A DNA stretch of 39,402 bases from Clostridiales bacterium (lineage in GTDB: Bacteria > Bacillota > Clostridia > Christensenellales > Borkfalkiaceae). The stretch lies in NCBI GenBank assembly GCA_015055545.1, contig SVHY01000017.1:1-39402 (forward strand). Direction: 5' to 3'. Of the stretch, positions 5,015 through 10,562 are shown one piece after another. The translations under genes and the position numbers were made by a program. The notes beneath the pieces were generated by a model. It saw only the letters and a list, made by a program, of their open reading frames with translations, ran no database searches and was not told the DNA's origin. Numbering within the stretch: the first letter of the stretch is position 1; each line of letters starts with the position of its first letter.

Positions 5015-5205
5015 TTCCCCTCGGAATCCGTAATCTCTAAAACGCACGGCAGGTCTACCGACTTACAACGCTTCGTATGCGTTTCATCGCATACATGCCC
5101 CTATCCTTCCCACTTTCGCAGTGAATAAAGGCAAAGCGTTCTTACGGTTGCGGGGGCAGTGGAGCAATTCTTTCGAGTTCTCTCTTCCCTATTATTCGAC
5201 TTTTC
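5015..5205 (-). ncRNA. Cobalamin riboswitch (B12 element)
   Basis: Read on the minus strand, the region contains the hallmark blocks of the class in the right order: AATAGGGAAG near 5190, CTGCCCCCGCAACCGT near 5150, CACTG with AAAGTGGGAAGG near 5115, a variable hairpin with ATGCG/CGCAT, and the B12 box AGTCGGTAGACCTGCC at 5048-5063. A terminator hairpin follows before the DUF4430 lipoprotein gene. The riboswitch binds adenosylcobalamin or a related cobalamin and would shut off the uptake genes when B12 is plentiful. Boundaries are approximate. Confidence 0.93.
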
Positions 5206-5242
5206 AAAAAGTCAAACCGTACGCTCGTATTCTATTGAATCT

Positions 5243-10141: not shown

Positions 10142-10216
10142 CGTCTAATTATCACCTTTTCACAACGCAATTTACGCATTGATAATTTATAATATAGTCA
10201 GTAAAACAACCTACAC

Positions 10217-10512
10217 TGTTTCTTTAGCCTGGCAATAGTTGAGCACAACAAGGTTTTAACGGCAAAAAGCCGCCCATACTTCGTCAATCTCACTTATAAT
10301 ACTTGGGTATGATTGCGTTCGATTTCCTTGTCTAAACGTCTTTTTGCTCGTTAAAACTGCTTTGCACCCAAAGAGCGTATTTTTAGGCGATTTTTGTCCA
10401 ACGTGGGCGCAGGCGTATTGAACATACGGCAAGAACGCGGTGGGCGAAAAGCGACAAAAAGACGCCTTTCGGGCTTGTTGCACTCAACTATTACCAGGCT
10501 ATCCGAGAAACA
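10217..10512 (-). ncRNA. Folded 296-base repeat-like element, candidate structured RNA
   Basis: The arms 10225-10252 and 10474-10501 form a 28-bp stem, extended by seven pairs (10217-10223 with 10506-10512) after a small internal loop. Inside lie two further long hairpins: 10253-10269 with 10340-10357 (17 pairs, one bulged base), stacked directly on the closing stem, and 10386-10398 with 10453-10466 (12 pairs around a small internal loop) capped by CGTAT/ATACG at 10414-10428. Together they make a three-way junction. At all three non-Watson-Crick positions of the closing stem (10233/10493, 10244/10482, 10245/10481) the minus-strand RNA has G-U pairs while the plus strand would have C-A mismatches, so I assign it to the minus strand. 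It fills most of the 473-base gap between tkt and the S41 protease gene. It could equally be a MITE-like mobile element; I see no clear target duplication and no second copy here. Confidence 0.6.
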
Positions 10513-10527
10513 CCTCCATATAATTTG

Positions 10528-10562
10528 CAAAAGCGCATACCTTTCTTAGGTATGCGCTTTTG
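10528..10562 (-). terminator. Terminator-like hairpin after the S41 protease gene
   Basis: A 14-bp perfect stem (10528-10541 with 10549-10562) with a seven-base loop. The T-run on the minus strand is short (four), so termination may be partial and could allow transcription into the folded element downstream. Confidence 0.65.

Follow-up and report, generated by a model that had tools for sequence, protein, structure and literature searches.

What is the strongly folded block that lies between the tkt and S41 protease genes in the analysed DNA (a stretch of 39,402 nt from a Clostridiales bacterium, GCA_015055545.1, hereafter the window)? The original prediction, made from the letters of the window, saw it as one unit selected as an RNA read from the minus strand, with a small mobile element as the main alternative. 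We consider it likely, with a probability of roughly 0.8, that positions 10225-10501 are a non-autonomous, MITE-like mobile element, member of a superfamily spread over the class Clostridia, which inserted in the hairpin loop of a putative small-RNA gene.

Two nested structures in the folded block

The strong folding was confirmed. The region 10205-10525 (321 nt) reaches -116.3 kcal/mol on the plus strand (z -7.95) and -117.3 kcal/mol on the minus strand (z -6.66), with 0 of 100 shuffles as good in each case, and the 277-bp element folded as DNA has a z of -9.06 (0 of 200 shuffles). An inverted-repeat search recovered the 28-bp closing stem that had been described, with arms of 28 nt that are 89% complementary (10225-10252 and 10474-10501), and also the left hairpin, whose stem pairs 10253-10268 with 10342-10357.

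The block contains two nested things, a mobile element copy (10225-10501) and, around it, the outer hairpin of a putative small-RNA gene (Table 1). Since the ends of the copies found in the own genome match the 28-bp stem and not the 7-bp extension outside it, the repeat unit is 10225-10501. The extension does pair, as originally described, but it is not part of the same unit, being outside the repeat and belonging to the other conserved block. The junction had been drawn as three-way; it is four-way, because the mini-hairpin TGC/GCA (10358-10366, helix 6) is kept in the family, paired in 96.2% of the cells across the family alignment.

No ORF of at least 100 aa overlaps the element. The Rfam search gave no match at E<=1 for 10200-10520, and none at gathering at this window position. 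On the minus strand of the window, a cobalamin riboswitch (RF00174, 74.3 bits) was found at 5031-5236.

Table 1. Features of the mobile element copy and of the putative small-RNA gene around it (positions in the window).
Feature	Positions	Strand	Basis
Conserved upstream block of the putative small-RNA gene, TTATCAC..ACAACGCAATTTACGCA	10149..10178	+	alignment of 22 congeneric loci
Conserved -10-like TATAAT	10188..10193	+	congeneric alignment
Host small-RNA hairpin, 5' arm (the 7-bp extension)	10217..10223	+	congeneric loci
Mobile element copy, 277 bp	10225..10501	+ (orientation of the family alignments)	7 full own-genome copies; genus lengths
Left TA, target duplication	10225..10226	.	single TA at empty sites of congeners
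Left terminal inverted repeat (TIR), 28 nt, starts with TA	10225..10252	+	pairs kept in the family (helix 1)
Left hairpin domain, source of model R1 (R1 match 10250-10370)	10253..10357	+	family alignment
Mini-hairpin TGC/GCA, fourth junction arm	10358..10366	+	helix 6
Right hairpin domain, with inner CGTAT/ATACG stem	10367..10473	+	helices 7-10
Right TIR, 28 nt, ends with TA	10474..10501	+	pairs kept in the family (helix 1)
Right TA, target duplication	10500..10501	.	empty sites; interrupted frame of L005 agrees with one TA
Host small-RNA hairpin, 3' arm	10506..10512	+	congeneric loci
Conserved CACCTCC, anti-Shine-Dalgarno-like	10511..10517	+	congeneric alignment
Terminator hairpin of the putative small-RNA gene, probably shared with S41 (opposite strand)	10528..10562	+	inverted repeat; T-runs in L135 and L146

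Copies in the genome and the genus

Seven full-length copies were found in the own genome (the window copy and six more), together with shortened copies and a second subfamily that shares the inner part and carries other TIRs. The 32 copies collected from the genus are all 276-281 bp long, and deletion derivatives of 151, 171 and 194 bp also occur. One divergent query matched 15 of the 57 genus genomes, the own genome included. Solo or tandem TIR remnants of about 30 bp (L156, 1539-1600; L159, 784-815) are apparently the product of deletions between short repeats of the element.

Conserved block around the insertion

The S41 gene was matched in 50 of the 57 genus genomes, and 30 loci were kept (for one of them, L148, the script picked another ORF). 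A conserved block with a variable apical loop stands beside S41 in 24 of the 30 loci inspected, 22 of them recognized by a first pattern (including the window and G017) and two (L139 and L143) by a looser one. The S41 proteins at these loci are only 50-56% identical to that of the window. At L144 (G006:C98), two inverted S41 copies are separated by a near-perfect palindrome, possibly an assembly artefact.

On the plus strand, the block is composed of TTATCAC, ACAACGCAATTTACGCA, TATAAT, the hairpin GTTTCC..GGAAAC, CACCTCC and the terminator hairpin, in this order. T-runs occur on the plus-strand side of the terminator in L135 and L146, so the block is read as a plus-strand unit. From this conservation between tkt and S41, we infer a small-RNA gene and its transcription. 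No canonical -35 was found at the usual spacing from the TATAAT of 10188-10193, and the terminator scan did not list the hairpin at 10528-10562 of the window. The block has no Rfam family at gathering, with weak sub-threshold matches (e.g. Atu_C9) over the terminator. The suggestion that the RNA is the tail of the S41 operon is not supported by this arrangement, in which the promoter-like block and the T-runs of the terminator both read on the plus strand.

When genome_contigs was scanned with an exact pattern of the empty hairpin, too narrow for a census since it required TTATGG, eight stretches were returned; five show the block (L174, L175, L177, L178 and L179) and three look like chance. 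The block-bearing stretches are from MAGs of Clostridia or Clostridiales, three of the five from dairy cattle or roe deer gut.

Filled and empty sites

The element occupies the apical loop of the small-RNA hairpin in the window and in G017 (L136/L077). At least five congeners (L126, L132, L134, L143 and L145) have the empty site with a single TA, GGAATAAGGAAAC, the kind of site for which a comparison of syntenic loci had been proposed. In another place (L005), the element lies inside an isomerase-like reading frame, whose two flanking parts are consistent with one TA; the right half of this frame matches PF01261 and the left half alone matches no Pfam family. At the sequence level, the filled and empty sites together with L005 show a TA target duplication. 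The mobile element that the original prediction kept as its alternative is supported by multiple copies, TA ends, filled and empty sites, and one interrupted frame.

The window copy is 87-94% identical to the other copies of its genome and 77% identical to the G017 copy at the same site, and the tree groups the copies by genome. This makes two insertions at the same TA, as judged from these sequences, more likely than a single inherited one. At the small-RNA site, gene conversion would be the alternative to a second insertion. In G025 and G023 (L081 and L085), two species, elements that are 72% identical stand at the same site in opposite orientations, which points to repeated use of one site or to inversion.

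We propose that the element, which is about 277 bp long and has paired ends and a four-way-junction fold, targets TA for insertion and would be mobilized in trans by an enzyme. In the own genome, it would have entered the small-RNA gene of the plus strand, whose first hairpin holds it in the apical loop. As the ends of the element pair, the insertion would lengthen the host hairpin and leave the promoter-like block, CACCTCC and the terminator in place, so the small RNA may still work. The same loop carries other extensions in L135, L142, L146, L150 and L153, suggesting that it tolerates length. If so, this locus is a natural experiment, a small RNA that would tolerate a 277-nt insertion in its loop.

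The element could also be selected to be harmless in any transcript, for instance if it extends host hairpins or is cleaved by RNase III. Both strands fold and the copy sits in an apical loop that is a variable part of the small RNA, as would be expected from such selection, but the elements show no clear excess in gene leaders (13 of 41, compared with 104 of 492 TA sites taken as controls, or with 28 of 115 when only those outside long ORFs are counted). A preference for leaders, which had seemed probable on visual inspection, was thus discarded, and we regard selection for harmlessness as unlikely.

Conservation of the fold

The fold of the element is kept by compensatory change. In the alignment of 26 genus copies (A3), 90.8% of the cells are paired, against 37-45% when the structure is slid, and 52 of the 105 pairs changed on both sides (32.6 expected from shuffles). 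Further pair types in A3 are not clearly above the shuffles (112 against 107.7, reached by 66 of 500). The signal is strong in the alignment of 35 copies that includes other families (A4), with 87.8% of the cells paired (again 37-45% when slid) and 80 of the 98 pairs changed on both sides against 58.7 from shuffles, corresponding to 594 cells against 190.7. The check for compensatory changes that had been suggested for this fold thus came out clearly in its favor. Relatedness is not removed by shuffling; it is retained in the slid controls, which give the same answer. Testing used the alignments from which the structures had been predicted, and this favors the structures. Several families have the asymmetric internal loops and the junction in common.

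Strand preference of the pairs

An RNA selected on one strand should have wobble pairs clearly in excess of A-C mismatches, which are the wobble pairs of the other strand. We counted both, on the plus strand, over strand-neutral pairs, that is, those predicted on both strands. The ratio of G-U to A-C is 72:99 in the 32 genus copies (91 pairs), becoming 58:58 when counted per genome and column. It is 133:96 in 35 copies (98 pairs), 136:111 in 45 copies (92 pairs), and 100:76 with one row per genome or subfamily. The energy gained from G-U pairs is larger on the plus strand in 27 of the 32 genus copies, the window copy being among the five exceptions. Pairs predicted on one strand only follow the strand of prediction (plus-only 109:9; minus-only 7:34). 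An early count of 76 G-U against 4 A-C in the right inner stem was set aside, since it is biased by a structure predicted from the plus strand. There is at most a weak tilt to the plus strand, and none to the minus strand.

The three irregular pairs of the closing stem are indeed G-U on the minus strand and C-A on the plus strand in the window copy. Such agreement of three in three was taken as unexpected; counting either strand, it has a chance of 1 in 4, and it is not family-wide. An RNA of the minus strand, cellular or acting in cis and selected for its fold, would be consistent with the stable minus-strand fold, with the conservation of the fold in relatives, and with the strand-neutral pairs of the window copy (1 G-U and 5 A-C on the plus strand, thus mostly wobble on the minus strand). 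Selection on a minus-strand RNA is, however, not borne out by the strand-neutral counts, where G-U shows no consistent minus excess, nor by the energy comparison. In addition, the copies lie in both orientations relative to the neighboring genes and the host block reads on the plus strand. We consider this origin very improbable.

Distribution over Clostridia

A search of 101 relatives with an own-genome copy found a single match outside the genus, in one genome and 25 bases long. Among plasmids, the window copy had one partial match, in Vescimonas fastidiosa (44% covered, E 1e-4), which turned out to be a full element with unrelated ends and opened a wider family. The Vescimonas element matched 11 of the 391 genomes of the class sample, where only two candidates were scored in most genomes. 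It also matched three unannotated fecal records titled 'Bacteriophage sp.', one at 87.6% over the whole length, one with 54% covered and one over 31 bases.

Model R1, built from the left hairpin only of 35 elements, matched 79 of the 391 genomes at E<=0.001, which represent 23 families and 52 of 223 genera. Six of these genomes (G000, G213, G240, G355, G424 and G466) were themselves sources of sequences for building it. The 78 matched genomes other than the own one are all listed as 'same class', so they lie outside its order, and R1 found none in the 5 listed own-family and 13 listed own-order genomes. This patchiness suggests horizontal spread or loss.

Where the ends were inspected outside the genus, the length of the full element is nearly constant too. 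Of 20 further places from seven of the 79 genomes, all of other families, 18 have paired TIRs whose outer edges enclose 275-285 bp; spans of about 216-356 bp were searched, and the spread comes partly from flanking bases that pair by chance. The two places without a good TIR pair are near a contig start and at a contig end. In G108, all seven copies span 273-278 bp.

G277 contains a one-hairpin version of the element (L250, L252, L254, L256 and others). Its 28 TIR matches comprise ten pairs that each measure exactly 160 bp between outer edges, a single pair of 61 bp, and six ends without a partner; at 11 loci the script gave no good pairs, the ends being closer than the range searched. Between its two subgroups the arms show paired changes, as from AGCGG/CGCTG to AACGG/CGTTG.

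The TIRs are unrelated between subfamilies and the ends are less alike than the core. Copies of G128 (L230-L235) have near-identical interiors and differing TIRs, which may reflect assembly collapse or a real difference between ends and core; they were not used as evidence of movement.

Search for a mobilizing enzyme

No autonomous relative with these TIRs was recognized in the genomes searched. In the 57 genus genomes (13 of them matched), allowing at most one mismatch, no TIR pair longer than 281 bp was found, except for a 5-kb combination in G031:C36, which we read as two remnants plus a separate element. Unpaired ends were partly followed in this search, those of G019 and G031 proving to be short remnants, and draft assemblies could lack an IS. 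G277, a single contig with a contamination estimate of 11, has no TIR pair between 200 bp and 15 kb. One exact TIR pattern had 0 matches in viral_contigs, and the window copy had no match among phages. An IS630 partner was also considered and rejected, since the IS630 catalytic domain PF13358 was found in 0 of the 57 genus genomes.

We weighed two further variants of the mobile element reading, which, like selection for harmlessness, can share its probability. The copies could be ordinary MITEs that depend on a sequence-specific DDE transposase, its autonomous copy being absent from the assemblies, with the arms kept mainly by template-switch correction of imperfect palindromes and not by selection. 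The TIRs, the TA duplication and the deletion derivatives are of this type, and the near equality of G-U and A-C residues is compatible with a process acting on DNA. This origin is less expected, however, from the recurrence of the same asymmetric internal loops and junction over several families, from the lack of an IS-size TIR pair in the single contig of G277, and from ends that are less alike between subfamilies than the core. We regard it as a real possibility, somewhat short of even odds.

In integron attC sites and REP/RAYT hairpins, the pairing is conserved while the sequence of the arms drifts, as here; attC sites serve the recombination of cassettes, and REP hairpins have only a fraction of the length of the 277-bp element. 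By analogy, the folded single strand could be what a mobility enzyme recognizes, in which case the pairing and the length would matter and the TIR sequence would not. Unrelated TIRs on one fold, outer spans of 273-285 bp, the ten exact 160-bp pairs of G277 with their paired arm changes, and the absence of a clear strand preference are all consistent with this. The TA duplication, on the other hand, resembles cut-and-paste transposition, and the enzyme itself is hypothetical. We find such recognition rather doubtful. A further step, which we also hold to be unlikely, is a Clostridia-wide lineage of mobile DNA recognized by its folded single strand, with shape and length inherited while the terminal sequences drift. 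If true, its mobility would be directed by structure, and none of the known kinds of system (DDE-MITE, IS200/IS605, REP and integron) would cover it.

Comparison with known elements

As in bacterial MITEs, there is no ORF of at least 100 aa, TIRs and a TA duplication are present, and copies are dispersed in one genome. Descriptions of bacterial MITEs are mostly confined to one genus or family and present them as short IS remnants that keep the IS ends. In the present case the range is a class, and the interior fold and the length persist although the ends vary from one subfamily to another, which makes the question of the mover directly testable. Searches of open-licence full-text papers listed no description of this element family. 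The element adds a structured family without an Rfam entry, whose model already finds it in about a fifth of the sampled genomes.

As described in PMC2229807 and PMC10969869, ERIC/IRU, Correia/NEMIS and RUP are likewise small, with TIRs, terminal TA and target duplication, and give stable stem-loop transcripts. Their descriptions set them apart from the present element: they are shorter than about 200 bp, form long stem-loops and belong to named genera or families, while this one has about 277 bp, a four-way junction, a range of 23 families of one class and TIRs that are not shared. Only RUP is reported to be connected with an IS through its TIRs (IS630-Spn1). Most of them, like this element, have no recognized mover, and Correia is reported to invert. 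Several known bacterial MITEs are also without an autonomous relative, according to PMC2229807.

Rickettsia palindromic elements are palindromic repeats also found inside structured RNA genes (tmRNA and M1 RNA). According to PMC2229807, they occur specifically in Rickettsia and contain reading frames that are fused into proteins, whereas the host here is a putative small RNA. IStrons also join a mobile element with a structured RNA, and clostridia are mentioned in the text of PMC4227781; IStrons carry a group I intron and IS genes, while this element has no 100-aa ORF and no Rfam match.

Likeness of some right ends to tRNA

Some right ends resemble part of a tRNA, a likeness that takes no part in our explanation. 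No fit to a T-arm is seen in the ends of B-type, G047, Vescimonas, G213 and G240 copies. The T-arm loop is present with a weak stem in the G355 end (3 of 5 pairs) and in the own-genome A-type ends (2 of 5 on the plus strand). The right ends of the copies of G019, G031, G028 and G040, and one strand in G424, fit a tRNA T-arm with 4-5 of the 5 stem pairs (e.g. L154, L104, L110, L109 and L192; one example is ACGAG TTCGACT CTCGT). These T-arm-like ends are followed by a 7-bp acceptor-like stem at tRNA spacing.
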